A stretch of 51,305 nt of DNA from assembly GCA_017416795.1 (NCBI GenBank), contig JAFQBD010000010.1:1-51305 (forward strand). Reading direction: 5' to 3'. Within the stretch, counting starts at the first letter, position 1. Every line of letters begins with the position of its first letter. This stretch comes from Bacillota bacterium. GTDB taxonomy: Bacteria; Bacillota; Clostridia; Peptostreptococcales; Anaerovoracaceae. Made by a program: the position numbers and the translations under genes. Below, piece by piece: positions 10,175-30,347 of this stretch. A model generated the notes under the pieces. That model saw only the letters and a program-made list of their open reading frames with translations. It was not told the DNA's origin and searched no databases.

Positions 10175-10212
10175 TAAATAAACCTTAAGTATACGAAAGA
10201 AGAGGGAAACGT

Positions 10213-12009: not shown

Positions 12010-12011
12010 CA

Positions 12012-13100: not shown

Positions 13101-13144
13101 CAAATAAATATTGAAAATATTATGATGAACAGGAAGTGATAAAA

Positions 13145-15120: not shown

Positions 15121-15606
15121 ATGACAGATTTTATGAACGAAGAAATGCTGTTAACTAAAGAGGGATATGACAAGATCGTAGCTGAGCATGAAGAACTGGT
15201 TTCTGTTAAAAGAGCGGAAGTCGCTGAAAGGATCAAGGAAGCTATCTCATATGGAGATATTTCCGAAAACGCAGAGTACGATTCAGCTAAAAACGAACAG
15301 GCTGAGCTGGAAGAAAGGATCTATACTCTTGAAAATATGATCCGTAAGGCTAAGATCGTACAGGAAGATGATGTTAAGGGAGACGTTGTAAATGTTGGCC
15401 TTAAGGTAAAGGTCAAGGACCTGGATATGGATTTTGAAGAAGAATTCTCTATCGTTGGAGCGACTGAATCAGACCCGTTCAACGGTAAGATATCAAATGA
15501 GTCTTCAGTAGGAAAAGCACTTATTGGCCACAAAGTTGGCGATAAGATAGCTGTAGAAGTGCCTGACGGTACTGTTAATTATGAAATCATTGAAATAATC
15601 AAATAA
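15121..15606 (+). CDS. greA: Transcription elongation factor GreA
   Basis: GreA binds the RNA polymerase secondary channel and stimulates cleavage of backtracked transcripts. The 161-residue protein has an N-terminal coiled coil (LTKEGYDKIVAEHEELVSVK through the following helix) with the acidic tip GDISENAEYDSAKNEQ, and a C-terminal FKBP-like domain with SPIGKAL-like SSVGKALIGHKVGD. The length is typical. The ribosome binding site AAAGGAG lies nine bases before the ATG; an in-frame ATG four codons later is a weaker alternative. In this genome greA heads an operon with two aminoacyl-tRNA synthetases; a greA-lysS pairing is common in bacteria. Confidence 0.96.
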   Translation: MTDFMNEEMLLTKEGYDKIVAEHEELVSVKRAEVAERIKEAISYGDISENAEYDSAKNEQAELEERIYTLENMIRKAKIVQEDDVKGDVVNVGLKVKVKDLDMDFEEEFSIVGATESDPFNGKISNESSVGKALIGHKVGDKIAVEVPDGTVNYEIIEIIK

Positions 15607-15636
15607 ATAAATCAACTAAAGAAGAGAGGTGTTTTT

Positions 15637-17664
15637 ATGCATTGGGCCGAAAGAATAGCTGACGAGATCATTAGAAAAAAACCCGACAAAGAACAATACG
15701 TATGTGCTGCCGGAATCAGCCCTTCCGGATCTATCCACATAGGTAACTTCAGAGACATTGCAACAGCACTGTTTGTTTGCAAAGCTCTCATAAAGAAAGG
15801 CAAAAAAGCCAAGCTTCTGTTCTCATGGGACGAATTCGACAGATTCCGTAAGGTTCCTAAGAACGTTCAGGATGTAGACCCTGAAGGTAAGTTCGAAGCA
15901 TATATTGGACAGCCATATACATCAGTACCTAATCCATTCGATACAGAACATGAAAACTATGCTAAGTACTTCGAAGCTGAATTCATGGAACAGATGGAAA
16001 GATTCGGTATCGAAATGGACTATAGATATCAGACAGAAATGTACACATCAGGAAAGTACAAAGATGATGTCATTGAAGCCATCTCTAAGAGAAAAGAAAT
16101 CTTCGATATCCTGGACAGCTTCAGAACTCAGGATGCAGAAGAGGGCGAACGTGATGCATACTTCCCTGTAAGCATTTTCTGCCCTGTATGCGGCAAGGAC
16201 ACAACTAAGATCAATTCCATTTCAGATGATAATACAGTAGCTGAATACGAATGTGAATGCGGACATACAGGAACATTTGACTTTAAGACAGACTTCAACT
16301 GCAAGCTTGCTTGGAAGGTTGACTGGCCAATGAGATGGAGATATGAAGGCGTTGACTTCGAACCTGCAGGTAAAGACCACGCATCTCCTGGCGGAAGCTA
16401 TGACAACAGCGGGGTTATCAGCAAAAAGATCTTCAACTATGAAACTCCGACATACCAGGGATATGAATTTATCGGTATCAAGGGCGTGGCAGGCAAGATG
16501 TCCGGTTCATCAGGTCTCAATCTGACTCCGGGAACACTGCTGAACATCTACGAGCCTGAGATCATCCTGTGGCTGTACTCCAAGACAGACCCTAAGAAGG
16601 CATTTGATTTCTGCTTCGACGACGGCATCCTGCGTCAGTATTTCGAATTCGACAAGATGTACAATGATTACAAAGCAGGAAAGACTAATGAACATAACAC
16701 ATCTGTTATGGAATACTGTCTTATCGAAGGAAGAGAAATCAAAACTGTTCCAATGAGTCTTCTCGTTCAGCTGGGATCTATCGTAGACTTCAATGTTCCT
16801 ATGATGGAAACAGTATTCGAAAAGATCGGAACACCGTATAAGTATGAAGATTTCGCACAGAGACTGGAACTGGCTAAGTACTGGCTGTACCAGTGTGCAC
16901 CTGAATCAGCTAATAAACTGAGAGATTACAGAGATTTCGCTTTATACAATACATTCTCAGAAGAAGAAAAGAAAGAAATCGCATTGCTGTACGATTACAT
17001 CGCTGCAGGTGAGTACGATCTCGATTCCCTGAACACTAAGCTGTATGACATCCCTAAGGAAGTCTTCGGATACGATGTAGAAAATCTGAAGCAGATCCAG
17101 GGACAGTTCTTCAAGAACGTGTACAAGCTTCTCATCAGCAAGGAGAGGGGTCCTAGACTCTATCTGTTCCTCTATGCTATCGATAGAGAAAGATTCATGC
17201 ATCTGCTTGACTTCTCACATCCACAGACTGAAGAAGAATTGGCTATAATCAAGGCGGAAGCGGAAGCAGAAGCTGCAGCTAATGCTCCTAAGGTTAGAGA
17301 ATATGGTGAACCTGATGAAGTTAAGCCTATCGTTGAACCTAATATCAACGTAGATCAGTTCTTTGCAATGGATCTGAGAGTATGTAAGATCATCAAGTGC
17401 CAGGAAATCAGAAAGGCGCACAGCAACTATAAGCTGACTCTCTTCGACGGTCTGAAGGAAAGAGTGATCGTTTCAAGCATCAAGGCTGATTACACTCCTG
17501 AAGAACTGATCGGCAAGAAGATCATCGTTGTTGCTAACCTGGAACCTGCAAGACTTACAGGCGTAACAAGCGAAGGTATGCTGCTGGCAGGAACTAACAA
17601 TGCCTGCGGATGTCAGGTGATCTTCGTTGATGACATCGTTCCTGAAGGAACAAGGATCTGCTAG
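15637..17664 (+). CDS. lysK: Class I lysyl-tRNA synthetase with C-terminal tRNA-binding domain
   Basis: A 675-residue enzyme that charges tRNA-Lys. It is the class I form, normally archaeal and found in scattered bacteria: HIGN (residues 34-37) is the HIGH motif and KMSGS (from about 287) the KMSKS motif, with a zinc-ribbon insert (CPVCGK ... CECGH) near 182-207. From about residue 569 to the end is an added EMAP/Trbp111-like OB-fold domain (INVDQFFAMDLRVCKI ... GMLLAG), the same type as at the C-terminus of bacterial MetRS. An alanine/glutamate-rich linker joins the two. The fusion should strengthen tRNA binding. The gene follows greA by 30 bases and precedes asnS by 12. Alternative: a class II LysRS elsewhere could coexist; this cannot be seen here. 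Confidence 0.92.
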   Translation: MHWAERIADEIIRKKPDKEQYVCAAGISPSGSIHIGNFRDIATALFVCKALIKKGKKAKLLFSWDEFDRFRKVPKNVQDVDPEGKFEAYIGQPYTSVPNPFDTEHENYAKYFEAEFMEQMERFGIEMDYRYQTEMYTSGKYKDDVIEAISKRKEIFDILDSFRTQDAEEGERDAYFPVSIFCPVCGKDTTKINSISDDNTVAEYECECGHTGTFDFKTDFNCKLAWKVDWPMRWRYEGVDFEPAGKDHASPGGSYDNSGVISKKIFNYETPTYQGYEFIGIKGVAGKMSGSSGLNLTPGTLLNIYEPEIILWLYSKTDPKKAFDFCFDDGILRQYFEFDKMYNDYKAGKTNEHNTSVMEYCLIEGREIKTVPMSLLVQLGSIVDFNVPMMETVFEKIGTPYKYEDFAQRLELAKYWLYQCAPESANKLRDYRDFALYNTFSEEEKKEIALLYDYIAAGEYDLDSLNTKLYDIPKEVFGYDVENLKQIQGQFFKNVYKLLISKERGPRLYLFLYAIDRERFMHLLDFSHPQTEEELAIIKAEAEAEAAANAPKVREYGEPDEVKPIVEPNINVDQFFAMDLRVCKIIKCQEIRKAHSNYKLTLFDGLKERVIVSSIKADYTPEELIGKKIIVVANLEPARLTGVTSEGMLLAGTNNACGCQVIFVDDIVPEGTRIC

Positions 17665-17676
17665 GAGAATAGATTA

Positions 17677-19071
17677 ATGAATGATATTCAGATAAGAAGT
17701 CTTTTTAGAAAAACTGAAAAATATGCGGGCAGCGAGATAGTTGTTCGAGGCTGGATCAGAACGAATCGTGGATCAAACAAGTTCGGGTTCATTGAGCTCA
17801 ATGACGGGACATTTTTCAAATCAGTTCAGGTAGTATATGAAGCTGATAATCTGGAAAACTTTGCGGAAATTTCCAAGGCGCCTATTGCAGCGGCACTCAT
17901 GGTTAAGGGTGATTTCGTTCTTACTCCTGATGCAAAGCAGCCTTTTGAGATCAAGGCGAAAGAAGTCGTTATCGAAGCAAGTTCAGATGCTGATTACCCT
18001 CTTCAGAAGAAGAGACACAGCATGGAATTCTTGAGAGAAATAGCACACCTGAGACCTAGAAGTAATACTTTCTCTGCAGTATTCAGAGTAAGATCAGTTG
18101 TGGCTTATGCCATCCATAAGTTCTTCCAGGAAAGAAACTTCGTATATGCACATACTCCGATAATCACAGGAAGCGATGCTGAAGGTGCAGGCGAAATGTT
18201 CAGAGTGACTACCCTGCCTATGGATGAACTTCCGAGAACTGAAGACGGAGCTATCGATTACAGCAAGGACTTCTTCGGAAAAGAAGCCTCTCTGACAGTA
18301 TCAGGACAGCTTGAAGCGGAAACTTTCGCACTGGCATTCAGGAATGTATATACATTCGGACCTACATTCCGTGCGGAAAACTCACATACAGCAAGACATG
18401 CATCCGAGTTCTGGATGATCGAGCCTGAAGTTGCATTTGCCGATCTTAACGATAATATGCAGCTGGCTGAAGATATGATAAAGTACATCATCAGCTATGT
18501 CCTTGAAAACTGTCCTGAAGAAATGGAATTCTTCAATAAGTTCATGGATAAGGGTCTTCTGGAAAGACTCAATAATCTTGTGAATGCAGACTTCGCCAGA
18601 GTGACATATACAGAAGCAGTTGAACTGCTTCAGAAGTCAGGTAAGAAGTTCGAATATCCTGTTCAGTGGGGCATCGATCTTCAGACGGAACATGAACGTT
18701 ATCTGACAGAAGAAATATACAAGGCTCCTGTATTCGTAACAGACTATCCTAAAGACATAAAAGCGTTCTACATGCGTCTCAACGACGACGGTAAGACAGT
18801 TGCTGCATGCGACCTGCTTGTACCTGGTGTTGGTGAGATCATCGGCGGAAGCCAGAGAGAAGAACGTTACGATGTGCTCAAGGCAAGGATCGAAGAAATG
18901 GGTATGGATGAGAAAGATTACTGGTGGTACATGGATCTGCGTAAGTACGGCGGCGTAAAACATGCCGGATACGGACTTGGATTCGAACGTATCATAATGT
19001 ATCTGACAGGAATGGAAAATATTAGAGACGTTCTGCCGTTCCCTAGAACGCCGGGAGTCGCGGAGTTTTGA
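17677..19071 (+). CDS. asnS: Asparaginyl-tRNA synthetase
   Basis: A 464-residue class IIb synthetase that charges tRNA-Asn. It has an N-terminal OB-fold anticodon-binding domain ([23 protein letters not shown]), and a catalytic core with motif 2 ([16 protein letters not shown]) and motif 3 ([29 protein letters not shown]). The [19 protein letters not shown] block separates it from AspRS. Length is typical. It sits 12 bases after lysK and closes the operon; a candidate promoter TTGACA begins just after its stop for the downstream riboswitch unit. Confidence 0.96.
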
Positions 19072-19125
19072 TGATTGACATGTTTTAAAGCATGTGATAC
19101 TGTATTTATACAATTAAATCACTTC

Positions 19126-19284
19126 CATGTTCTGCTAGCAATAGCAGCGAAGAGGGAAGCCGGTGAGAATCCGGCACGGACCCGCCACTGTAATTCGGGA
19201 GTTTGAAATCAGGCCGCAAGGCAGCCACTGAGAAATCGGGAAGGTGATATCAGATGAAGATCGATAAGTCAGGAGACCTGCATG
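19126..19284 (+). ncRNA. Cobalamin riboswitch 1 (aptamer, approximate limits)
   Basis: The leader of the first DUF4430 lipoprotein gene holds the conserved elements of the B12 element in order: GAAGCCGGTGAGAATCCGGC (from 19157), GCCACTG twice (19184-19190 and 19224-19230), GGGAAGG (19238-19244) and the B12 box AAGTCAGGAGACCTGC (19266-19281). A transcription terminator lies about 70 bases downstream, before the gene's ribosome binding site, so ligand binding should favour termination. The ends of the aptamer are estimated. A TTGACA at 19075, directly after the asnS stop, may be the -35 of its promoter, but the -10 is weak. Confidence 0.95.
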
Positions 19285-19350
19285 AGGAGACACTTGACAA
19301 GGTACCACGGGAAAATGGTATGGCGGTGATTCGCATAATACAGATAATAC

Positions 19351-19384
19351 GGACTGTACATAATATAAGTACAGTCCATTTTTT
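19351..19384 (+). terminator. Terminator of the riboswitch 1 expression platform
   Basis: GGACTGTAC (19351-19359) and GTACAGTCC (19369-19377) form a perfect 9-bp stem with a 9-base loop, then a T run to 19384. It precedes the lipoprotein ribosome binding site, the usual position for a riboswitch-controlled terminator. Confidence 0.93.
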
Positions 19385-19423
19385 ATGGCTTATATTGATT
19401 TGATCGCAAGGAGGAAAAGAAAA

Positions 19424-19846
19424 ATGAAAAAAGTATCAGTAGTTTTGATGGCACTTATTATGATGTTCGCTATGGCAGCATGTGGAGGCAGTTCAGATGC
19501 ACCTGCAGGTGATGCTGCTATGATCGATGTAACTATCGAGATCGATTTTCCTGATGTTGACGGGCAGCCTGATGTAGAAGACTATAAGTTCCAGATCCCT
19601 GAAGGCTCAACTGCTCTTGATATGCTCAACTTATATGCAGAAGCAGAAGGTGTAGAAATCGTTATGTCCGATACAAGTGCTACAGCATACGTTACTTCTA
19701 TCGGAGGCGTTGCTGAAACAGATGGTGCAGGCTGGGTATATGAAGTAGACGATGAAATGACACTCGATGCTGCTGATGAACATATCGTTAAGCAGGGTGC
19801 TGAGATCACATGGGAATATATGAGCTGGGATGAGATGGGAGACTAG
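19424..19846 (+). CDS. DUF4430 lipoprotein 1, putative corrinoid-binding protein
   Basis: A 140-residue lipoprotein: a lysine start, a hydrophobic signal and the lipobox region FAMAACGGS, so the mature protein should be attached to the outer face of the membrane. The rest is a single DUF4430 domain, recognised by the segment GSTALDMLNLYAE and by GAGWVYEVDDE ... GAEITWEYMSW near the C-terminus. DUF4430 is related to the beta domain of animal intrinsic factor and transcobalamin. The start is ATG 19424, nine bases after AAGGAGG; an in-frame ATG at 19385 lies in the terminator region and has no site. With a cobalamin riboswitch upstream and an ECF transporter 12 bases downstream, I infer that it captures cobalamin for the transporter. 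Confidence 0.85.
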   Translation: MKKVSVVLMALIMMFAMAACGGSSDAPAGDAAMIDVTIEIDFPDVDGQPDVEDYKFQIPEGSTALDMLNLYAEAEGVEIVMSDTSATAYVTSIGGVAETDGAGWVYEVDDEMTLDAADEHIVKQGAEITWEYMSWDEMGD

Positions 19847-19858
19847 GAACGGTAAACG

Positions 19859-20749
19859 ATGAGTAACAGTACGTTTGCAACATATCACCCAATAATAAAT
19901 TTCGGATTTTTCTGCGGAGTCATAGGCCTGGGGATATTTCTGATGCACCCCGTGTTTTTGGCAGTAGGAATGGCGGCATCACTTATCTACGCGCTGATGC
20001 TGGGAGGGAAAGGAACGCTTAAATTCTTTCTCAGCTTTATGCTGCCCGTGATCCTGTTGATAATAGTTATAAATCCTATTTTTAACAGCAGGGGAGATAC
20101 GATACTTTTTTATCTTGGGAGTAATTACGTAACACTTGAAGCGTTGGCATACGGCATGTGCATCGCTTTCATGCTTGCATCGGTGATAATGTGGTTCTCA
20201 TGTTATAACAACATAATGACCAGCGATAAATTCATCTATCTGTTCGGTCGTATCATGCCGGCAATATCCCTCATATTCTCGATGGTAATGCGCTTTGTAC
20301 CAAACTATAAGATGCAGATCAAGAAGATCTCAGATGCGCAGAAATGCATAGGCAGAGATGTTTCCAACGGTACTGTGATGCAAAGGGCGCGTCACGGAGC
20401 GAAGATAATTTCCGTGATGTTTACCTGGGCTTTGGAAAATGCCATTGATACGGCAGATTCCATGAGATCGAGAGGCTATGGACTAAAAAACAGAAATACG
20501 TTTTCCATATATCGATTCGACAGGAGAGATGCAGCGGCAGGCATAGTGATGCTGGCAGCAGCTTGTGTAGTAATAGCGGGAGCAGCTTCAGGCAAATGCT
20601 CCATAGAATTTTATCCGAATATAGTTATGACTGAAATGGATGCCTTCGGGATAGCAGTATATGCGGCATATTTAGTGCTCTGCTTTTTCCCTATCGCTAT
20701 AGAAGTAAAGGAGGTGCTGACATGGCGACTTATGCAGTCAAGAATCTGA
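19859..20749 (+). CDS. ecfT: ECF transporter transmembrane component EcfT (CbiQ family)
   Basis: A 296-residue polytopic membrane protein with about five to seven hydrophobic segments. It is the scaffold of an energy-coupling factor transporter, linking two ATPases to a substrate-binding S component. Two cytosolic coupling-helix motifs are recognisable: DAQKCIGRD near residue 160 and ADSMRSRGYGL near residue 200, where the short S-R-G takes the place of the usual A-R-G. Its 3' end overlaps the ATPase/S fusion gene by 28 bases, and the AAGGAGG of that gene lies inside it, which points to fixed stoichiometry. Being under riboswitch 1, this is likely a dedicated cobalamin (group I-like) module, not the shared EcfT of the genome. 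Confidence 0.9.
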   Translation: MSNSTFATYHPIINFGFFCGVIGLGIFLMHPVFLAVGMAASLIYALMLGGKGTLKFFLSFMLPVILLIIVINPIFNSRGDTILFYLGSNYVTLEALAYGMCIAFMLASVIMWFSCYNNIMTSDKFIYLFGRIMPAISLIFSMVMRFVPNYKMQIKKISDAQKCIGRDVSNGTVMQRARHGAKIISVMFTWALENAIDTADSMRSRGYGLKNRNTFSIYRFDRRDAAAGIVMLAAACVVIAGAASGKCSIEFYPNIVMTEMDAFGIAVYAAYLVLCFFPIAIEVKEVLTWRLMQSRI

Positions 20750-23277
20750 CCTTTACATATCCGGGGAAGACTGAACCGGCATTAAAAGATGTAACATTGA
20801 ATATAGAGATGGGAGAATTCATAGCCGTATGCGGCCAGTCGGGATCGGGCAAAAGTACTCTGCTGAGAAACTTGAAACCTATCTTGGCACCTCACGGAGA
20901 CAGACAGGGCGATATCTTGTTTTACGGAGAGCCGATAGAGAATATGAGCCAGCAGAGACAGGCGGCGAGGATCGGTTATGTGCTGCAGAATCCGGACAAT
21001 CAGATCGTAACAGATAAAGTGTGGCATGAGCTGGCATTCGGTCTTGAAAGTCTTGGTCTCGATACTAAGACAATAAGACTGCGTGTTGCAGAAATGGCCA
21101 GCTTCTTCGGCATACAGAGCTGGTTCCACAAGGATGTCGATCAATTGTCCGGCGGACAGAGGCAGCTTTTGAACTTGGCAGCAGTAATGGTTATGCAGCC
21201 TGATGTGCTTATTCTCGACGAACCTACATCACAGCTGGATCCTATCGCTGCCGGAGATTTTCTTGAAACGGTGGGAAAAATAAACCGAGAACTTGGTACT
21301 ACTGTAATAATCACGGAACACAGGCTGGAAGATGTGCTGCCGATGGCAGACAGAGCTATCGTGCTTGATAAGGGAAAGGTGATCGCAGATGATATACCGG
21401 CCAATGTAGGAGCCATATTGGCCAAGGGAAACCACCCTATGTTCATGGCCATGCCTACGCCTTTGCAGGCATATGCGATCCTTTATCAAGAAGGAATCGG
21501 CAAAAATCTTGCGTGTCCCGTAAATGTAAGGGAAGGGCGCAACTGGCTCACTGATCTTTTGCGCGGGGAAGAACTGGTTAAAATAAAACTCCCTGCTGAC
21601 GAAGAAAAAGAGCCTGCTGAAGATCCTGTGATAGAAATGAAGGACGTATGGTTCAGATATGAAAGAAGTGAACCTGATGTAGTGAAGGATCTTTCTCTCA
21701 AGGTTTATCCGGGAGAAATGTTCTGTCTCGTAGGAGGCAACGGTACCGGTAAGACTACGACTCTGACGCTGGCAAGCGGTATCAGAAGACCTTATCGCGG
21801 CACCGTGAAGCTTAAGGGGAAAGCTATAGATAAATATAAAAAGAACGAGATGTTTGATGGAGTCCTGGGCGTATTGCCTCAAAATCCACAGAGCATCTTT
21901 GTTGAAAAGACGGTCAAAAAGGATCTTCTGGAAATCTTTGAAGGGCGTGATCTAAATGAGGAAGAAAAGTATGCAAAGGTCAGAGCTGCTGCTGAGATGG
22001 TTGAGATTGGTCATCTTTTAGACATGCATCCTTATGACCTTTCCGGGGGAGAACAGCAAAGGGCAGCTCTTGCTAAAGTCTTGCTTCTCGAGCCTGAAAT
22101 ACTGCTTCTCGATGAACCTACTAAGGGACTGGACAGCAGCTTTAAAGCAAAGCTTGCAGACGTGTTGAAAGGTCTTCAGGCAAAAGGCATGACGATCCTC
22201 ATGGTATCTCATGATGTGGAGTTTTGTGCCAGATACGGCGATAGATGCGCCATGTTCTTTGACGGCAAGATCGTAACGACCAATGCTCCGAGATCATTCT
22301 TTTCGGGCAACAGTTTCTATACTACTGCAGCCAACAGGATGTCCAGGCACATATTTGAGAATGCAGTCAATGTGGATGATATCGTGGAGCTTGTGAGAGA
22401 AAACCTTGGCGGATGCAATGGGCACAATGGTGTTTCTGATGATGATAGCCCGATTGAAATGCGATCACAGAAAACCATAGAACCATTGAAAATCCAGCGC
22501 ATAGAAGAATCGCCTATTGACGATAAAAGTCGAAATGCCGAACCTGAGATATCGTGTGAATATATAGAGTCGAAGAGAAGTCATAAGGCGATCTTTGATG
22601 CCGCTATGCTGCTTGCAGCAGTACTGACCATATGGGTGGGCTTCTTCAAGCTTCAAGGAGACCATTATTTAGCAGTGTGCATACTGTTGATAATTTATGC
22701 TATGGTTCCGTTCTTTGTAAGTTTTGAACAGAGACGGCCAAAGGCGCGAGAGATAGTCATACTTGCCGTGCTCATTGCGGTGGCGGTAGTTGGCAGAGCA
22801 GCATGCTTCATGCTGCCTAACTTCAGTCCTATGCTGGCGATCGTAGTGATATCTGCGGTGGCATTAGGTAAGGAATCCGGATTTTTGCTTGGTGCGATCT
22901 CTGTTCTGGTTTCGAACTTCTTGTTCGGTCAGGGACCGTGGACTCCATGGCAGATGATAGCAATGGCGATAGTAGGTTATTTAGCAGGCCTGATATTCCA
23001 TAAGCACGCAAATAAGGTGAACAAGTATGTGCTGATCGTATTTGGTGCTGTAGCTACATTCTTCATATACAGCGGCATAGTAGATATCTGGTCTATATTC
23101 TTCATGATGCCTGAAGTGTCGTGGAAGAATGCTCTTATAGTATATGGGGCAGCTGTTCCTATGAACTTGATGCATACGGCATCTACAGTGATTTTCATAT
23201 TCATTTTAGGAAAGCCGATTCTGGGTAAGCTTGAAAGAGTGAAAGAAAAGTACGGAATGGATGTCTATTCTGCTTAA
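20722..23277 (+). CDS. Fused ECF ATPases EcfA-EcfA' with S component (putative cobalamin ECF transporter)
   Basis: An 851-residue fusion of three transporter subunits. The first ATPase has Walker A GQSGSGKST (residues 38-46), signature LSGGQRQ (about 141) and Walker B VLILDEPTSQLD. The second has GGNGTGKTTT (about 338), LSGGEQQRAAL (about 440) and ILLLDEPTKGLD. After a polar linker (about 575-625) come about six membrane segments to the end, including FGQGPWTPWQM, resembling ECF S components of vitamin transporters. Both ATPases look intact. With EcfT this single chain would supply every remaining part of an ECF importer. The substrate, cobalamin or a precursor, is inferred from riboswitch control and from the DUF4430 lipoproteins. 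The start ATG follows AAGGAGG by six bases. Confidence 0.9.
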   Translation: MATYAVKNLTFTYPGKTEPALKDVTLNIEMGEFIAVCGQSGSGKSTLLRNLKPILAPHGDRQGDILFYGEPIENMSQQRQAARIGYVLQNPDNQIVTDKVWHELAFGLESLGLDTKTIRLRVAEMASFFGIQSWFHKDVDQLSGGQRQLLNLAAVMVMQPDVLILDEPTSQLDPIAAGDFLETVGKINRELGTTVIITEHRLEDVLPMADRAIVLDKGKVIADDIPANVGAILAKGNHPMFMAMPTPLQAYAILYQEGIGKNLACPVNVREGRNWLTDLLRGEELVKIKLPADEEKEPAEDPVIEMKDVWFRYERSEPDVVKDLSLKVYPGEMFCLVGGNGTGKTTTLTLASGIRRPYRGTVKLKGKAIDKYKKNEMFDGVLGVLPQNPQSIFVEKTVKKDLLEIFEGRDLNEEEKYAKVRAAAEMVEIGHLLDMHPYDLSGGEQQRAALAKVLLLEPEILLLDEPTKGLDSSFKAKLADVLKGLQAKGMTILMVSHDVEFCARYGDRCAMFFDGKIVTTNAPRSFFSGNSFYTTAANRMSRHIFENAVNVDDIVELVRENLGGCNGHNGVSDDDSPIEMRSQKTIEPLKIQRIEESPIDDKSRNAEPEISCEYIESKRSHKAIFDAAMLLAAVLTIWVGFFKLQGDHYLAVCILLIIYAMVPFFVSFEQRRPKAREIVILAVLIAVAVVGRAACFMLPNFSPMLAIVVISAVALGKESGFLLGAISVLVSNFLFGQGPWTPWQMIAMAIVGYLAGLIFHKHANKVNKYVLIVFGAVATFFIYSGIVDIWSIFFMMPEVSWKNALIVYGAAVPMNLMHTASTVIFIFILGKPILGKLERVKEKYGMDVYSA

Positions 23278-23306
23278 GCAGATAGCAAGTCAAAACTTAA
23301 TAATGT

Positions 23307-23503
23307 GAACGAGACAAATCGGAAGCCGGTGAAAATCCGGCACTGTGTCTCAGCAACCGTGAAATCAACGAAAAGATAAGCGTGACAGAATGATCTGTCC
23401 GCAGCCACTGAGGATCTGACCTTGGGAAGGCATCTTAGTAGGTACGTGAAGTTTATCGAAGCAACTTCATGAGAAAGATAAAGTCGGTAGACCTGGCTCG
23501 TTC
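23307..23503 (+). ncRNA. Cobalamin riboswitch 2 (aptamer)
   Basis: A second B12 element in the 394-base gap after the ECF fusion gene. Conserved parts in order: GGAAGCCGGTGAAAATCCGGC (split as GGAAGCCGG and AAAATCCGGC around 23321-23341), GCAGCCACTGAGG (23401-23413), GGGAAGG (23424-23430) and the B12 box AGTCGGTAGACCTGGC (23482-23497). The closing stem P1 is visible: GAACGAG (23307-23313) pairs with CTCGTTC (23497-23503). It differs much from riboswitch 1 outside the conserved core, so the two are not a recent duplication. It should control the second DUF4430 lipoprotein and the large surface protein. Confidence 0.94.
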
Positions 23504-23551
23504 GAAAGGAAGTCTTCTGAGATAGGACGCCGACGGATATGTTTGATCTAT

Positions 23552-23584
23552 ATAACAAATATAAGCGATGCTTGTATTTGTTAT
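23552..23584 (+). promoter_or_regulatory. Strong hairpin between riboswitch 2 and its terminator
   Basis: ATAACAAATA (23552-23561) and TATTTGTTAT (23575-23584) form a 10-bp stem, capped by an inner AAGC-GAT-GCTT. There is no T run directly after it. It is probably part of the riboswitch expression platform, though its pairing partner in the alternative fold is not clear. Confidence 0.55.
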
Positions 23585-23605
23585 GTTGAGTCATATATTA
23601 AGCGG

Positions 23606-23631
23606 CCGCATCTTTTGAAGATGCGGTTTTT
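23606..23631 (+). terminator. Terminator of the riboswitch 2 expression platform
   Basis: CCGCATCTT (23606-23614) and AAGATGCGG (23618-23626) form a 9-bp stem with a TTG loop, followed by TTTTT. It lies about 40 bases before the lipoprotein start codon. Confidence 0.9.
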
Positions 23632-23671
23632 CATATTTTTGAGAAGTTTAACTAAAAAGGAAGGACGTGAC

Positions 23672-24262
23672 ATGAACGAAAAGAAAATGAGAAAACGAAA
23701 TTTTACATTCGCTGCATTATTGCTGATCATGGTATTTGCCCTTTGCATGACGCTCATATCGTGCGGAGGAAGTGAAACCGATGATGTCGCCAAAAACGAG
23801 GTAAAGGCGGAACAGACTGCAGAGGGCAATGCCGACAGCAAAGACACAAAAAACGAGCAAGATGAAGAAGCGGCAGTAAAGAAGGAGGATAAGAAAGAAA
23901 CTGCTCAAAAAACAGAAAGTCAGAAAACAACACAGAAGTCTGAGCAAGCAACTCAAAAAGAAACTCAAAAGCCTACTCAAGCAAAGCAGGTTTGTTATAT
24001 CTCCATAGAAGGATATTGCAGCGGTAAGGAGATAAGCTTGCAGGGCGGCGATACGGCTTACAGTGTGCTTTGCAGATCGGGTGCCAGTGTATCAGGCTCA
24101 GGTAATTATATAAAAGGTATAAATGGGCGATTTGAATTCGATGAGGGCCCTACCAGCGGATGGGTATATTACGTCAATGGAAGCAAACCATCTGTAGGAT
24201 GTGGAAGCTGCTCGATAAAGGCAGGGGACAGCATCAAATGGGATTATGTGACTAGCTATTGA
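23672..24262 (+). CDS. DUF4430 lipoprotein 2, putative corrinoid-binding protein
   Basis: A 196-residue lipoprotein with a basic N-terminus, hydrophobic signal and lipobox LISCGGS. Residues of about 35-105 are a long low-complexity spacer rich in Lys, Glu, Gln and Thr, likely a flexible arm that reaches through the cell wall. The C-terminal DUF4430 domain contains GDTAYSVLCRSG, GPTSGWVYYVNGSKP and GDSIKWDYV; it has four cysteines (CYIS, YCSG, LCRS, and GCGSC), which lipoprotein 1 lacks. The start is ATG 23672 with AAGGAAGG upstream; the open frame further upstream runs through the riboswitch and is not coding. It is 39 bases ahead of the large surface protein and under riboswitch 2. Role inferred as for lipoprotein 1. 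Confidence 0.85.
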   Translation: MNEKKMRKRNFTFAALLLIMVFALCMTLISCGGSETDDVAKNEVKAEQTAEGNADSKDTKNEQDEEAAVKKEDKKETAQKTESQKTTQKSEQATQKETQKPTQAKQVCYISIEGYCSGKEISLQGGDTAYSVLCRSGASVSGSGNYIKGINGRFEFDEGPTSGWVYYVNGSKPSVGCGSCSIKAGDSIKWDYVTSY

Positions 24263-24301
24263 TGGGTAATTTGATAAGCATAAAATGAAAGGAGAACATA
24301 T

Positions 24302-27151
24302 ATGAAAAAACGTATTTTTACATGGCTTGCTGCTTTCGTAGTGGCATTGACCATGGTGATGGGAGGAAGCCAGACAGTGTTTGCTGCAGGAAACACAGGT
24401 TATCTGGATTGGTCATGGCAGCCGCCGACTAAATCCCACGAATGGGGCACTTACGGTATAACTTCGCCTGCCCATAAAGGGACTTTTGCGTATGTCGTAT
24501 CGTATGACACTATTTACAAGATAAAGGATAGCAGCGGTCAAATGATAGACTCTGCTGACCTTGGAGGTAATGTTATGTGGAGCAAGCACGCGCCTACTAT
24601 TGCAGGAAGCAAGATTTTCGTTCCACTGGCAGATTCTAAAATCGCAGTGTTAGACATCAGCAATACTAATTCTATTGAGCTGATCAAGACCATAACTTAT
24701 GCAGAAGGACAGAAAGATTATCAGAGTAATGTGCGCGCTTTTTATGACAAGGACAGTAATGCTGTATATCTTGGATCATGGGGCGGTACTAAGCTCGGCA
24801 CGTATGTAAAGATAGATGTTAATACTTATGAAGTTACAAAGATCGCTGATGGCAGAGGGTTCTACTATGCAGGTGCTGCAGCGGTAGGAGACTATATCGT
24901 GTTCGGCTCAGAAGCTGTTGGTGATGATGCCGTGCTTTATGCGTATAACAAGGTGAACGGTAAGACTACAAGTAAGACTATAGCAGGATCTGGATCTATA
25001 AGGGCATCGGTAGTGGCAGATAACGGCACATGTTATTTCGTATCAAATAATGGCAATCTCTATAGTGCAGTCATAGATGCTGATGGCAATATAAGTGAAA
25101 CTCTTATTGCTGATGTAGGATATGCATCAACTTGTACTCCGCTTGTTTATGATGGTTATCTGTATGTTGGATATCAAGTAAGTGAAGGCTTTGATTCAAA
25201 GGGCGGCGTAAAAGCATTTGATCTGGCAAATATCACGGCCGAACCTAAAACTTTCGCTGATGTGCCCGGCCCTGTAGCAACGCTGTACCATCCTGCCAAC
25301 AGACCATCAGACAAGGCTGTATATGCTACATATAACAATATGCCGGGCGGAATATGGGATGTTACTAACGGACAGGCATATTTCACACCGGAGGGAGATA
25401 TGGAACAGTACTGTATGTCAACAATAGTTGATACTGCTCAGAGAATGTTCTATATGAATGACAGCGGCAATCTTATGGCAGTCAAGAATACAAGCTCAAG
25501 CACAGCTGCCATGTATAAGGTGACTGCATCTGCAGGCGAAGGCGGTAAGGTTAGCCCTAGCTTTGTGAACGTTAAAGAAAACGGAACAGCAACTTTCTAT
25601 TTTAATGCTGAACCGGGATATAAGGTAGCGTCGATAAAGGTGAACGGAGCTGAACAGGAACTTAGTTCAGGCGTTGTAAGTTCGTTCGCAGTGAAGAAAG
25701 TGGCTAAAGATACTAAAGTGGAAGTTGAGTTCAAAAAAGCTGTAGTGGCTGAAAAGGCTATTGAAGTTTCCGTACAGCAGGGAAATAAATTCTGTTTAGC
25801 ACATGAAAAACTCAACGTTAAGTCTGATCTGGCAGAAACTAAGGGCTATACCGATGCAGTGGATATAGAAACAGTATCTGCGCTTGACGCACTTGTAGCA
25901 GCTCATATCCACGTATACGGAAATGATGCAGATCTCAGTCCGTATCTTACTATGTCAGGCGGAAATCCATCCGTAGTGATGGGGTACAAAGGGCCTGCTT
26001 ACTCTTCAGGTTTCGCAGTAAATGAAAACTATGCAGCTGATGCAAAGGGCACAGGGTATAATGTGAACCAGGCACCGCTCGCCGCAGGAGACAGAGTGGA
26101 TTTCTTCTGGTATGAAGATGCGAACTATATGGATACTGTAACAGCCTTTGCTGATAAAGATGGGAAGATATTTTCAAAAACAGTGAAGGAAGGCGAAAAC
26201 CTTGAACTCACTATGGTCGGTTATCCGATCATGTATTACGGATGGATGCCTGAAGGACCTATAGCAGGAGCAGAAATCGTTGCACTGGAAAAGCAGGCTG
26301 ACGGAAGCTATGTGACAGGCGATGCTTTGAAAGACAATGAAGGGGATGCCTTAGTAACAGATACTGAAGGTAAAGCAACTATCAAGCTTGAGCCGGGGAA
26401 ATATTATCTTACTTTAGACAAGGGTGAATATTCTTCTAAAATCATAATGCCTTGGCTGGAAGTGACAGTTGAATGCGATCCGCATGACTTTGAAAACGGA
26501 GTTTGCAAGGACTGTGGAGAACTGCAAGTTATAGAAGATACTCAGATCGTTAAAGAAACACTTAGCGCTGTTCCGGAGGAATTGAGCGGCAAGTTCAATG
26601 ATGTAGATGCGTTAAAGGCAGAGCTTATCAGTCGTGTGATCGCTGTCTCAGGATATTCGGCAGAAAATACTGAATTCTATGATGTGAAGCTGCAGTTCAA
26701 ATATGATGGTAAGTGGATCGATGCTACGGAAGCAAATTTCCCTAAAGAAGGAATAACTGTTGAGTTTTCTTATCCGGATGGAACGGATAGTGAAACTCAT
26801 GACTTTGCTATCAGCCATATGTTTACTGTGACATCCGATCGTCTCGGAACTGTTGCGGGTGAAACAGAGCAGCCTGAAGTAACTGAGACAGAAACCGGTC
26901 TCGAGGCAACTTTCAACGGTCTTTCACCTGTATCCATCTCATGGACAGAAACTGCAGCCGATGATGGTGCGGGAGTAGGAGCCGGAAACGATGGACAAGT
27001 AAATGATGAGTCCGATAATGAACCTAAAGAAAAAGCAGAAGAAGCAACAGATACAGGAGACGACTTCAACGCGTTACTGTTTGGCATTATAGCACTTACA
27101 GCATTTGCAGCGGCAGCAGCGACAGTATTCTACAGAAGAAAAACAAACTAA
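24302..27151 (+). CDS. Large secreted surface protein: propeller-like, InlB-type repeat and DUF4430-like regions
   Basis: A 949-residue protein with a signal peptide ending FAAG. Residues of about 30-395 look like a beta-propeller of PQQ/WD-like blades (repeated segments such as TIAGSKIFVPLADSKIAVLD, AVGDYIVFGSEA, PLVYDGYLYVGYQV). About 400-475 is a divergent InlB B-repeat (VTASAGEGGKVSPS ... VEVEFKK). About 480-735 resembles a long DUF4430-type region (VSALDALVAAHIHVYG ... AGDRVDFFWYED). A short HDFENGVCKDCGE motif (H, C, C) follows, then another beta domain, and near the C-terminus an acidic stretch, DTGDD, a hydrophobic helix and RRK: a wall or membrane anchor without a proper LPXTG. Under riboswitch 2, behind lipoprotein 2. 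I infer a surface corrinoid receptor; no direct proof. Confidence 0.75.
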   Translation: MKKRIFTWLAAFVVALTMVMGGSQTVFAAGNTGYLDWSWQPPTKSHEWGTYGITSPAHKGTFAYVVSYDTIYKIKDSSGQMIDSADLGGNVMWSKHAPTIAGSKIFVPLADSKIAVLDISNTNSIELIKTITYAEGQKDYQSNVRAFYDKDSNAVYLGSWGGTKLGTYVKIDVNTYEVTKIADGRGFYYAGAAAVGDYIVFGSEAVGDDAVLYAYNKVNGKTTSKTIAGSGSIRASVVADNGTCYFVSNNGNLYSAVIDADGNISETLIADVGYASTCTPLVYDGYLYVGYQVSEGFDSKGGVKAFDLANITAEPKTFADVPGPVATLYHPANRPSDKAVYATYNNMPGGIWDVTNGQAYFTPEGDMEQYCMSTIVDTAQRMFYMNDSGNLMAVKNTSSSTAAMYKVTASAGEGGKVSPSFVNVKENGTATFYFNAEPGYKVASIKVNGAEQELSSGVVSSFAVKKVAKDTKVEVEFKKAVVAEKAIEVSVQQGNKFCLAHEKLNVKSDLAETKGYTDAVDIETVSALDALVAAHIHVYGNDADLSPYLTMSGGNPSVVMGYKGPAYSSGFAVNENYAADAKGTGYNVNQAPLAAGDRVDFFWYEDANYMDTVTAFADKDGKIFSKTVKEGENLELTMVGYPIMYYGWMPEGPIAGAEIVALEKQADGSYVTGDALKDNEGDALVTDTEGKATIKLEPGKYYLTLDKGEYSSKIIMPWLEVTVECDPHDFENGVCKDCGELQVIEDTQIVKETLSAVPEELSGKFNDVDALKAELISRVIAVSGYSAENTEFYDVKLQFKYDGKWIDATEANFPKEGITVEFSYPDGTDSETHDFAISHMFTVTSDRLGTVAGETEQPEVTETETGLEATFNGLSPVSISWTETAADDGAGVGAGNDGQVNDESDNEPKEKAEEATDTGDDFNALLFGIIALTAFAAAAATVFYRRKTN

Positions 27152-27204
27152 TGAATTATCTGTAAATAGAACATGTAGTTCAAATGAAAACCTATGAAAT
27201 AGCG

Positions 27205-27237
27205 AGCCTTTTGCAATTTTTGTAAAAGGCTTGTTTT
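27205..27237 (+). terminator. Intrinsic terminator after the surface protein gene
   Basis: AGCCTTTT (27205-27212) pairs with AAAAGGCT (27224-27231), extended by a few inner pairs, followed by TTGTTTTAT. It separates the riboswitch 2 unit from the aldehyde dehydrogenase. The rest of the 319-base gap holds one further weak hairpin and a promoter. Confidence 0.8.
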
Positions 27238-27330
27238 ATAACGAAGTTTCAAAAAGCCTACCGATGATGGCAAAGCAGCGAAGCTGGCTTTTTATAGCAA
27301 ACTAGTACAGCAATAGTGCCTGCCTACGCC

Positions 27331-27360
27331 TTGACAACGTTTTGCAGACAGTGTTAAAAT
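27331..27360 (+). promoter_or_regulatory. Promoter of the aldehyde dehydrogenase gene
   Basis: TTGACA at 27331-27336 and TAAAAT at 27355-27360 are 18 bases apart. The leader to the ATG at 27471 is about 100 bases, with no recognised riboswitch. Confidence 0.65.
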
Positions 27361-27470
27361 ATAGTCAAATTGGGTTAATATTAAGATCATTACGCAGCTT
27401 AATGATTTTAATAATTTCGCAAGAATAAAAAAAGAAAGAATAGTTAAAAGAAAAAAGGAGATTGATAAAC

Positions 27471-28823
27471 ATGACTGTTCAGAACAAAATCGAAAGAGCA
27501 AGAAAAGCAGTAGCTGAAATCAGCAATTACACTCAGGAACAGGTTGACAAGCTGGTATACGAAGGTGCTAAGATCATCTACAAGAACGCAGAACCTTTAG
27601 CAAGACTGGCAGTTGACGAAACAGGCCTCGGCAGCTACGAAGACAAAATCTGCAAGAACACTGATACTCCAACAGCTTTCTGGGATTACCTGAAAGATAA
27701 GAGATCAGTTGGTATCATCAACGAAGATCCATCACAGGGTCTGATCGAAGCTGCACACCCAATCGGAGTTATCGGTGCTATCACACCTGCAACTAACCCT
27801 ACAGTAACTCCACTCGGAAACTTCATGCACGCAGTTAAGGGTAAGAACGCTGTAATCATCTCACCTGCTCCACGTGCAGAAAAGACTTCAACTGAAACTG
27901 TAAACCTGATCAGACAGGCTCTGAAGGCTTGTGGCGCTCCAGAAGACCTCGTTCAGATCATCAATGACGTAACTATCGAAAAGTCACAGGAACTGATGGC
28001 TAACTGCGACCTCGTTATCGCTACAGGCGGTGCTGGACTGACTAAGGCTGCTTACTCATCCGGAACTCCTGCTTACGGCGTAGGCCCAGGAAACCCTCCA
28101 GCAATCCTTGACAGAGGATATGACCTGAAGGACGCTGCAGAAAAGTCAATCGTAGCAGTATGCTCAGACAACGGTATCCTGTGTGACGGTGACAACCTGC
28201 TTCTGTACCCAGAAGAAGTTGAAGCTGATTTCTTCGCAGAACTGAAGACAGCTGGCGCTGTTATCTTCGAAGACGCTGCTGACGTTGCTAAGTTCAGAGA
28301 CGCTCTGTTCGAAGACGGACACATCAACTCAGGTCTGGTTGGTAAGGACGTTGACGTTATCGCTGAAGCTGCTGGATTCGCAGTACCAGAAGGAACTAAG
28401 GTTGTTGGTCTGAAGGTTGACGCTATCGGAGCTGCTGACGTTCTTTGTAAGGAAATCATGGGACCTGTAGTGATCCTGAAGAGCTATGACACATTCGAAA
28501 ACGCTGTTGAAATGGCAGTAAGAAACATGGAAGAAGCTGGCGGAACTGGACATACAGCTGGTCTGTTCACAAACGACGAAGAACATGTTCTGTATGCCGG
28601 AGCTAGAATCCCAGTTGCAAGAATGCTGATCAACCAGCCTACACCAGATGCATGGGGTCCATCATCAAACGCTCTGTCACCTGCTGTATCAGAAGGTTGC
28701 GGAACTTGGGGTAACAACATCCTGGCTGGAAACGTTGACTACATCCACATGGTAAACGTTTGCAAGATCGTTAAGCCTCTGGACATCGAACTTCCTGACG
28801 GAGCAGTTCTGTTCGCTGACTAA
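27471..28823 (+). CDS. CoA-acylating aldehyde dehydrogenase
   Basis: A 450-residue member of the aldehyde dehydrogenase superfamily, of the CoA-acylating group (acetaldehyde, succinate semialdehyde and related dehydrogenases; EutE, SucD and AdhE N-terminal type). Such enzymes convert an acyl-CoA and NAD(P)H to the aldehyde, or the reverse. The segments HPIGVIGAITPATNPT and VIISPAPRAEKTS form the cofactor site, and SDNGILCDGDN holds the expected catalytic cysteine (residue 238). Strong codon bias suggests high expression. I start at ATG 27471, ten bases after AAGGAG; the in-frame TTG at 27462 abuts that site. Flanked by its own promoter and terminator, so monocistronic. With a 3-aminoacyl-CoA ammonia-lyase 0.8 kb away, a fermentative role is likely; the exact substrate is unknown. 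Confidence 0.87.
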   Translation: MTVQNKIERARKAVAEISNYTQEQVDKLVYEGAKIIYKNAEPLARLAVDETGLGSYEDKICKNTDTPTAFWDYLKDKRSVGIINEDPSQGLIEAAHPIGVIGAITPATNPTVTPLGNFMHAVKGKNAVIISPAPRAEKTSTETVNLIRQALKACGAPEDLVQIINDVTIEKSQELMANCDLVIATGGAGLTKAAYSSGTPAYGVGPGNPPAILDRGYDLKDAAEKSIVAVCSDNGILCDGDNLLLYPEEVEADFFAELKTAGAVIFEDAADVAKFRDALFEDGHINSGLVGKDVDVIAEAAGFAVPEGTKVVGLKVDAIGAADVLCKEIMGPVVILKSYDTFENAVEMAVRNMEEAGGTGHTAGLFTNDEEHVLYAGARIPVARMLINQPTPDAWGPSSNALSPAVSEGCGTWGNNILAGNVDYIHMVNVCKIVKPLDIELPDGAVLFAD

Positions 28824-28871
28824 TTACAGTCAATACAGATAACTTAAAAAATCATCATTGAGTTATGTATG

Positions 28872-28902
28872 AAAGACGGACAATTTTATTGTCCGTCTTT
28901 TT
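28872..28902 (+). terminator. Intrinsic terminator after the aldehyde dehydrogenase
   Basis: AAAGACGGACAA (28872-28883) and TTGTCCGTCTTT (28889-28900) form a perfect 12-bp stem with a 5-base loop, followed by TT. The next gene's ribosome binding site begins directly after it. Confidence 0.9.
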
Positions 28903-28919
28903 AAAGGAGATGTTAGTTT

Positions 28920-29480
28920 ATGACTGCAGATGTTAGATACAGTCAGATCTACTTTGTGAATATAATAGTGGAAAATGATTGGGGATATCACCTTGAATCA
29001 CTGTGGTATGGATCAGATTCAAAGAATCTGGCGCTTATGATCATGGATGTCATGAATTCATGGTATGAACCCAATAAAGATGTTCTCGGGCAAAGCATCA
29101 GAGATTTTCATGAGAAGCTGGAAAAGGCGGCAGACGAAGAGAATCCTGTTCCGCTTTCATTCAAAGAACTGAACGGTGAGATATTTCATGAAAACGGACT
29201 TAAGATGACGATCGAAGCTACGAATAACCTCGCAGAGATGTACGCTTTCGTATTCAATGAATCCTTTGAGATCTTCGCTGTAAACGGAGAAAAAGCTGAA
29301 GATTTTAACAGCGTTGCAGAGTATGTAGATTACATCGAAAACGATTGCAAGGCCGATGAAATGATAGTGGCAGCATTAAGATCAAAGGATGAAAATGATA
29401 TAGCCGCGGCACTGTACAGGATAGATGTTAAATACAATTACTCGGGACGTCACTATATACCTCAGGGCCCTAGAAATTAA
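28920..29480 (+). CDS. Protein of unknown function, 186 residues
   Basis: I do not recognise this protein. It is soluble, acidic and rich in aromatic residues (WGYHLESLWYGSD, MNSWYEPN), with no signal peptide or membrane helix and no cysteine pair that suggests metal binding. The middle part contains FHENGLKMTIEATNNLAEMY and the end YNYSGRHYIPQGPRN. The reading frame is supported by a good ribosome binding site (AAAGGAG, nine bases before the ATG) and by codon use like its neighbours. It begins 18 bases after the terminator of the aldehyde dehydrogenase, so it depends on read-through or a promoter inside that gene. The sensible reading is a conserved hypothetical. Confidence 0.65.
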   Translation: MTADVRYSQIYFVNIIVENDWGYHLESLWYGSDSKNLALMIMDVMNSWYEPNKDVLGQSIRDFHEKLEKAADEENPVPLSFKELNGEIFHENGLKMTIEATNNLAEMYAFVFNESFEIFAVNGEKAEDFNSVAEYVDYIENDCKADEMIVAALRSKDENDIAAALYRIDVKYNYSGRHYIPQGPRN

Positions 29481-29500
29481 ATGGATTTCAAACTAATCCA

Positions 29501-29529
29501 TTGACAGTAAAGGAACGAGGGTGTATTAT
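29501..29529 (+). promoter_or_regulatory. Promoter of the ammonia-lyase gene
   Basis: TTGACA at 29501-29506, a 17-base spacer and TATTAT at 29524-29529 make a near-consensus promoter. Transcription should start at about 29536, inside the inverted repeat described next, and leave an 80-base leader. Confidence 0.75.
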
Positions 29530-29532
29530 AAA

Positions 29533-29558
29533 TATGTACGTAAAAAGCGTTGTACATA
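29533..29558. repeat. Inverted repeat at the transcription start of the ammonia-lyase gene
   Basis: TATGTAC (29533-29539) and GTACATA (29552-29558) are perfect inverted arms separated by 12 bases and cover the predicted start of transcription. They could be a repressor operator or a 5' mRNA hairpin. Confidence 0.45.
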
Positions 29559-29618
29559 CAAAATACAGCGTAAAAATTATAAAATTTAATTTCTTAAAAA
29601 TTTAGGAGGATGATTAAA

Positions 29619-30137
29619 ATGGCAGCTATTAAGACAGTTTTAGAATGCATCATGGAAAGAGAAAACAACCCTAAGATGATCGGTTCATACGTAAACCTGA
29701 AGGCAAGAATGTCAGCTGGCGATGCTCACTATGCTGGTGAACTCGTAGAAGGCGCACACATCGTAACTGCATGGGGAGACGTTGGTACAGAACTGGCTAT
29801 CAGACTTCACGGTGACGAATCACTGTTCGTAGGATACGAAGAAGTTAGATACACTGCTCCAGTATTCGCAGGCGACTGGATGGAATACGGCGGATACATC
29901 GAAAAGGTTGGTAACACTTCATTCAAGTGCAAGTTCTTCGCTTACAAGTGGATGAGAGATTCAAAGGATGAAAACGGCAACGTAATCAACGGATCAGGCG
30001 CTGAAATGATCAACCCACCTGAACTGGCTGCATACGGAACTGGTACTCTGATGGTTAAGAAAGAACTGCAGAGACCTGAATTTGCTGACCCTGATTTCGT
30101 AGCTGACGCAAAAGCTTACAGAGAAGCAAACAAATAA
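29619..30137 (+). CDS. 3-aminoacyl-CoA ammonia-lyase (beta-alanyl-CoA / 3-aminobutyryl-CoA type)
   Basis: A 172-residue single hot-dog-fold protein. The pattern ARMSAGDAHYAGELVEGAHIV, WGDVGTEL, GDESLF.GYEEV and APVFAGDWMEYGGYIEKVGN matches, from memory, the clostridial beta-alanyl-CoA ammonia-lyase and the lysine-fermentation enzyme Kal. These remove ammonia from a 3-aminoacyl-CoA to give the enoyl-CoA (acrylyl-CoA or crotonyl-CoA). The C-terminal extension (NPPELAAYGTGTLMVKKE) is more like the beta-alanyl-CoA enzyme than the shorter Kal. I start at ATG 29619, nine bases after AGGAGG; an ATG at 29610 touches that site. Codon bias and a strong promoter suggest high expression. No other lysine-fermentation gene (kamA, kce) is in the window, so the substrate is undecided. 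Confidence 0.75.
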   Translation: MAAIKTVLECIMERENNPKMIGSYVNLKARMSAGDAHYAGELVEGAHIVTAWGDVGTELAIRLHGDESLFVGYEEVRYTAPVFAGDWMEYGGYIEKVGNTSFKCKFFAYKWMRDSKDENGNVINGSGAEMINPPELAAYGTGTLMVKKELQRPEFADPDFVADAKAYREANK

Positions 30138-30178
30138 GATCGAGTTTCCGGTGTGAAACATTCTTAGACTTGATTATG

Positions 30179-30208
30179 AAGACGGACGATTTATCGTCCG
30201 TCTTTTTT
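30179..30208 (+). terminator. Intrinsic terminator after the ammonia-lyase
   Basis: AAGACGGACGA pairs with TCGTCCGTCTT around a TTTA loop (30179-30104 region of the stem, ending at 30204), followed by T residues to 30208. The core of the stem, GACGGAC/GTCCGTC, is the same as in two neighbouring terminators. Confidence 0.9.
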
Positions 30209-30278
30209 CATGTAGCTGTAATTCTTTGAAGTATGGTGAAAAACCTCAAAAACTGCCCTTTGCGAGGAATTAAATATG

Positions 30279-30307
30279 TTGCTATGCCATAATTAGAATG
30301 ATATAAT
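30279..30307 (+). promoter_or_regulatory. Promoter of the EF-G-like gene
   Basis: TTGCTA at 30279-30284 and TATAAT at 30302-30307 are 17 bases apart, and TG at 30299-30300 gives an extended -10. The leader to the ATG is about 35 bases. Confidence 0.7.
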
Positions 30308-30347
30308 GGTGATATCTTTAGGAAATATTTTAGGAGGTCTTAATTAG

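Follow-up and report, generated by a model that had tools for sequence, protein, structure and literature searches.

A 51,305 nt stretch of a Bacillota genome (assembly GCA_017416795.1, contig JAFQBD010000010.1, positions 1 to 51,305; hereafter the window) carries an energy-coupling factor (ECF) importer whose substrate subunit most resembles CbrT and which is flanked by two cobalamin riboswitches. Alongside it the locus encodes a pair of DUF4430 lipoproteins and a surface protein of 949 aa that has a beta-propeller; these are predicted to capture extracellular corrinoid and probably pass it on to the importer. The locus is a further member of a predicted, uncharacterised kind of system, and the function proposed for it is well supported. 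The features concerned are listed in Table 1, and the assembly to which they belong is 1.94 Mb in size and 99.96% complete.

The ECF set at the locus is complete, consisting of EcfT, two EcfA domains and an S component, all of which score over their family cut-offs. The EcfA domains and the S component are joined in one fusion protein, which reached 357.6 bits against TIGR04520 (cut-off 315; the sum of two stretches), while its S domain matched both PF12822 (41.4 bits, cut-off 30.7) and PF07155 (49.1 bits, cut-off 26.7). A profile of 23 S-domain sequences (the window protein and 22 relatives) was searched against the PDB, and the best solved match was CbrT (6fnp_A, E 1.3e-19, 74.1 bits), followed by 4hzu_S (E 1.3e-5, 28.3 bits) and RibU (3p5n, E 4e-4, 23.4 bits). 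The S domains also share an invariant QG-WT--QM loop. By its sequence profile, the S domain of the fusion is classed as CbrT-like, being closer to CbrT than to the other solved S components. Structure 6FNP is that of the B12 transporter ECF-CbrT, for which transport of both cobalamin and cobinamide has been reported (PMC5997447), and the match supports the proposal of the initial annotation, made from the nucleotide sequence alone, that an ECF transporter imports corrinoid here. ECF-CbrT has been tested in E. coli delta-FEC, a strain without a B12 importer of its own. The match of EcfT to CbiQ, together with a score over the cut-off for the cobalt ATPase subfamily model cbiO, would also suit a CbiMNQO-like cobalt importer under B12 control. 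That is highly improbable given the CbrT-like S domain, the score of 21 bits against the 111.8 required by the CbiQ model TIGR02454, the absence of any CbiM-type match among those listed for the locus proteins in the Pfam scan, and the failure to find a corrin-ring methylase that would use the cobalt (see later).

Both aptamers exceed the RF00174 gathering score of 31.5 bits and both precede a terminator-like hairpin with its T run, so that the two distinct cobalamin riboswitches with terminators described in the initial annotation are upheld; the terminator pattern scan listed the hairpin of switch 2 and not that of switch 1. A whole-genome RF00174 search found no cobalamin riboswitches beyond this pair. 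The same annotation had assigned the genes to two riboswitch-controlled units and, while both switches and both gene sets are confirmed, switch 2 may sit inside a single operon. Since the sequence of aptamer 2 begins with the fusion gene's stop codon, and the promoter scan has no + strand entry from 21394 to 23701, the aptamer may be a second, in-line attenuator within a single operon and not the start of a separate unit. The suggestion is a weak one because the scan lists no promoter 5' of aptamer 1 either, although TTGACA can be read there at 19075-19080. Three cobalamin riboswitches in a row are found near DUF4430 genes in two related loci (L049:5157-6354 and L076:4477-6730), and the trio of L049 comprises one high-scoring and two low-scoring examples, comparable to the high-scoring and divergent pair of the window.

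The presence of DUF4430 in both lipoproteins, first proposed without profile searches, was borne out by PF14478 scores above the cut-off of 23.8 bits, and a whole-genome search found no further DUF4430 genes. Their lipobox-type export signals were judged by eye from the sequence. DUF4430 is described as the C-terminal domain of TCN proteins (PMC4350170).

The neighborhood was compared in two samples of loci that were chosen through different proteins and have a single locus in common (L074 = L048). The first comprised 22 loci fetched via the fusion protein (ECF-anchored), mostly from metagenome-assembled Bacillota and Clostridia, plus Candidatus Colimonas and four Paenibacillus. The second comprised 60 DUF4430-anchored loci, taken as the best match in each of the first 60 distinct genomes listed, a choice that favours strong DUF4430 matches; 13 of these stretches are shortened by contig ends. 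Gene order proved to be conserved, with a DUF4430 gene upstream on the same strand, and in the same gene run, in 20 of the 22 ECF-anchored loci, and directly before EcfT in 17 of these. Thirteen of the 22 relatives have the S domain and the ATPases in one protein while the other nine have a separate S gene, and 12 loci carry cobalamin riboswitches (14 in total), all on the gene strand. In the DUF4430-anchored sample, 35 loci have EcfT, 34 the ATPase pair, 31 a CbrT-like S component, 45 a toroid protein and three a propeller. Cobalamin riboswitches occur in 25 of these loci, amounting to 29 in 413 kb where about 0.83 would be expected, and all 29 lie on the DUF4430 strand. The background rate behind this expectation (303 in 151.3 Mb) is a lower bound, as no more than eight candidates were scored per genome and one genome (G215) was counted as zero; doubling it would raise the expected number to 1.7. 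DUF4430 itself was found in 149 of the 297 genomes of the order, and its association with CbrT-type ECF transporters and cobalamin riboswitches is far beyond chance.

Table 1. Features of the corrinoid capture and import locus, in window coordinates.
Feature	Position	Strand	Evidence and remarks
Cobalamin riboswitch aptamer 1	19109..19299	+	Full-length RF00174 match; cmscan 109.5 bits, E 1.3e-26
Terminator-like hairpin, switch 1	19351..19377	+	-14.4 kcal/mol, z -4.7; 0/200 shuffles equally stable; followed by T run
DUF4430 lipoprotein A	19418..19846	+	AGGAGG ribosome-binding site; Cys-containing signal peptide; 142 aa for a start at 19418; PF14478 50.6 bits
EcfT transmembrane coupling protein (CbiQ family)	19859..20749	+	PF02361 35.6 bits (cut-off 25)
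EcfA-EcfA-S fusion	20722..23277	+	Two ATPase domains (PF00005, two stretches) and S domain (~aa 640-851)
Cobalamin riboswitch aptamer 2 (divergent, with insertions)	23275..23510	+	RF00174; cmscan 40.2 bits, E 8.7e-7
Terminator-like hairpin, switch 2	23604..23628	+	-14.9 kcal/mol; 0/200 shuffles equally stable; followed by T run
DUF4430 lipoprotein B	23672..24262	+	196 aa; L-I-S-C lipobox; long charged linker; PF14478 66.4 bits
949-aa surface protein	24302..27151	+	Predicted beta-propeller ~aa 26-400; conserved middle module ~aa 487-724; C-terminal membrane segment
Likely terminator 3' of surface-protein gene	27202..27234	+	Hairpin and short T run, z -4.5 (fold of 27160-27240)

The third candidate catcher, the 949-aa surface protein, is without a Pfam match at E <=0.1 and consists of a propeller and an uncharacterised module. 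Among the structure matches listed for the propeller, BamB, YxaL and designed propellers give the best alignments; BtuG is not among the best 50 matches listed in either of two propeller searches, and such a listing does not exclude a BtuG type. Related loci often encode an alpha/alpha toroid partner, and no toroid hidden Markov model (HMM) match was found in window positions 15601-31000. Across 23 ECF loci (the 22 relatives and the window), 14 have a toroid, six a propeller and two both, with neither found in five, and a propeller occurs without a toroid in four of the six propeller loci. In L048 the gene following that of the propeller encodes DUF4430 (26.2 bits, cut-off 23.8). The sortase sorting-signal model NF058571 stayed below its cut-off, at 14.1 bits (cut-off 29), although one sortase gene was found.

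In one relative (L066) the toroid and DUF4430 are found in a single protein. Of 7,995 candidates scored, 1,074 were homologous to it at E 1e-3, and PF14478 is present in 119 of the best 120. Its structural model (mean predicted local distance difference test score, pLDDT, 70.6; predicted template modelling score, pTM, 0.56) was compared to the PDB with Foldseek, and the top five matches were all transcobalamin, over 628-657 columns. The modelled fold supports a two-domain resemblance to transcobalamin, and is not proof of an identical arrangement.

Several observations weigh against the proposal that DUF4430 lipoproteins and the propeller catch corrinoid and pass it to the importer. ECF transporters are generally regarded as functioning with no binding protein outside the cell, and a hand-over from lipoproteins would therefore be unusual. 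ECF genes occur with no DUF4430 nearby in L060 and in L050 (the latter on a short contig), and among the DUF4430-anchored stretches 35 of 60 are without a riboswitch and 25 of 60 without EcfT. Lipoprotein A deviates from the family at near-invariant positions (A for S162, D for N169 and A for D186, in the numbering of lipoprotein B). The middle module of the surface protein is no more than a possible DUF4430 domain, with an hhalign probability of 22% over 26 columns and E about 0.3 with a custom HMM. The E-values of the L066 model against transcobalamin are modest (9e-5 to 5e-4) with an rmsd of 11-14 Å, and the search designated VIA listed no transcobalamin among its best 50 matches, all of which were toroid enzymes. 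Finally, another contig of the genome carries one FecCD-family permease along with an ATPase and a binding protein.

The loci in which DUF4430 and the ECF genes occur apart would suit an explanation whereby the transporter imports corrinoid alone, and the lipoproteins and propeller act otherwise at the surface without docking, for example by holding corrinoid in the cell wall, by stripping it from other carriers or in adhesion. It has import in common with the capture-and-transfer reading and differs from it in the hand-over. In favour of this explanation, cobalamin was taken up by the purified ECF-CbrT complex, in which it is the S component that binds (PMC5997447), while the upstream DUF4430 gene in 20 of 22 ECF loci, adjoining EcfT in 17 of these, argues against it; on balance this explanation is possible, if somewhat doubtful. 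Rather unlikely is an ECF importer that depends on its binder, in which the DUF4430 lipoproteins would hold corrinoid against a propeller standing in for the toroid, and would then bind the CbrT-like domain and hand over their cargo.

A need for imported corrinoid is suggested by the remainder of the genome, which encodes five proteins with a B12-binding domain. Four of these, all but the one in L014, were named with NCBIfam: the beta subunit of lysine 5,6-aminomutase, with the alpha subunit adjoining, and OraE are over their cut-offs, and the MetH-like and MtgC-like proteins are below theirs. The B12-dependent lysine 5,6-aminomutase lies on a contig other than that of the window. No member of the corrin-ring methylase family PF00590 was found in the genome while all 14 control genomes matched, so de novo corrin synthesis looks to be absent. 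PF00590 also includes RsmI, which we take to be a near-universal rRNA methylase, and even so no member of the family was found in the genome. CobU, CobS and a histidine phosphatase are encoded together on another contig, and with these cobinamide could be completed to a cobamide.

The initial annotation reported no BtuF or BtuCD genes, and this holds at the locus, where no FecCD permease or Peripla_BP_2 binder was listed for eight locus and flanking proteins (for the fusion, among the best 25 of 33 families). Genome-wide it is less certain, given the FecCD system mentioned above. That system could be the real cobalamin importer, of BtuFCD type, and the window locus would then import another corrinoid or a precursor such as cobinamide, for which the salvage enzymes are present. 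The best NCBIfam match of the permease is indeed the BtuC model, at 201 bits and below the cut-off of 334, with FhuB about equal. Its binding protein is nearest to the iron-complex protein 4hn9 in the PDB (E 2e-36, compared to 5e-7 for BtuF), all of its NCBIfam scores are far below cut-off (PGF-CTERM-type 67, IsdE 57 and BtuF 43 bits), and both cobalamin riboswitches found in the genome sit at the window locus, all of which makes this explanation distinctly unlikely. At L011 (C60:14000-25000) the permease gene adjoins that of a 1,524-aa protein combining propeller repeats of regulator type with a domain like that of molybdopterin oxidoreductases, and a small lipoprotein-like protein with the same domain is also encoded there.

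Under the favoured reading of capture followed by ECF import, both switches would terminate transcription when adenosylcobalamin is plentiful. When it is scarce the lipoproteins would be made, and their beta-grasp domain would grip cobalamin or cobinamide, perhaps with the propeller protein as a second jaw in the role played by the alpha/alpha toroid in relatives. Release to the CbrT-like domain would be followed by ATP-driven import, cobinamide would be rebuilt by CobU and CobS, and the imported corrinoid could serve lysine 5,6-aminomutase, ornithine 4,5-aminomutase, the MetH-like methionine synthase and the MtgC-like corrinoid protein. Corrinoid binding by the lipoproteins, the hand-over to the S domain and the replacement of BtuF are functions predicted from sequence.

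On the 5' side of the locus, the window encodes three AMP-binding acyl-activating enzymes (8438-14956), the genes of the second and third being separated by one resembling alanine racemase, and a class I (archaeal-type) lysyl-tRNA synthetase (15637-17664), the C-terminal stretch of which scored 107.4 bits against the tRNA-binding MetG beta domain, just under the cut-off of 116.65. Just 3' of the locus is an acetaldehyde-dehydrogenase-like gene (27462-28823), and further on is a gene similar to that of 3-aminobutyryl-CoA ammonia lyase of lysine fermentation (29610-30137; 118 bits, cut-off 160). Both of the latter are also present beside the corresponding locus of L047, with more than 95% identity.

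The initial annotation considered the pairing of such binders with an ECF importer to be novel, and this does not stand, as Burroughs et al. (2007, PMC1796856) had already proposed B12 scavenging by such proteins, whose genes they placed in predicted operons alongside CbiQ-like genes and ones for CbiO-like ATPases. That study described a transcobalamin-like clade in low-GC Gram-positive bacteria with toroid and beta-propeller partners and often a second paralogue, pointed out that such bacteria are usually without key B12 synthesis enzymes, and proposed that animals acquired their B12 carriers from them. What is new beyond this account is that the importer is identified with CbrT, that the riboswitch link is quantified, that no further cobalamin riboswitch was detected in the genome, and that a propeller is the partner, without a toroid in four of six loci. 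A search of open-access literature found no study that tests a bacterial DUF4430 protein by experiment. A survey of gut genomes lists CbrUVT as a B12 transporter; among the B12 auxotroph variants it found a known B12 importer for only about half, and for its authors finding the B12 transport systems of numerous genomes is an open problem (PMC6593275). If the proteins described here bind corrinoid, that gap would be partly filled, an ECF transporter would be seen to be fed by an external binder, and the proposed bacterial origin of the animal carriers would become testable. Were the binder-dependent form true, ECF transporters would include a class reliant on a binding protein, and the B12 carriers of animals would have a counterpart in living bacteria. 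With one genome, one pair of switches and one importer, the locus offers a compact test case.

Among known systems, BtuCDF likewise combines an external binder with an ATP-driven membrane importer, but it is an ABC importer whose permease is of the FecCD family and whose binder is of the Peripla_BP_2 family, and neither was found at the window locus. BtuG of Bacteroides is also a surface beta-propeller beside a B12 importer, but its partner is the outer-membrane protein BtuB (PMC6977713), and the window propeller is closest, among the matches listed, to the BamB, YxaL and designed folds. The DUF4430 beta domain is shared with animal transcobalamin, haptocorrin and intrinsic factor, whereas in the window no toroid was found and the proteins are predicted lipoproteins, not secreted carriers. 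The operons of Burroughs et al. are similar in having extracellular beta-grasp proteins, a second paralogue, a propeller, and ATPase and CbiQ-like genes (PMC1796856), but S components and riboswitches are not named in the portions of that text examined; the window differs in the CbrT-like S domain fused to both ATPases, in its two riboswitches and in the absence of a detectable toroid gene from the locus. ECF-CbrT of Lactobacillus delbrueckii (6FNP) agrees with the window system in S-domain profile and in the possession of two ATPases and EcfT, but there CbrT is a separate S protein and the module is common to several S components (PMC5997447), whereas in the window the S domain is fused to the ATPase pair and the genes of surface lipoproteins adjoin it.

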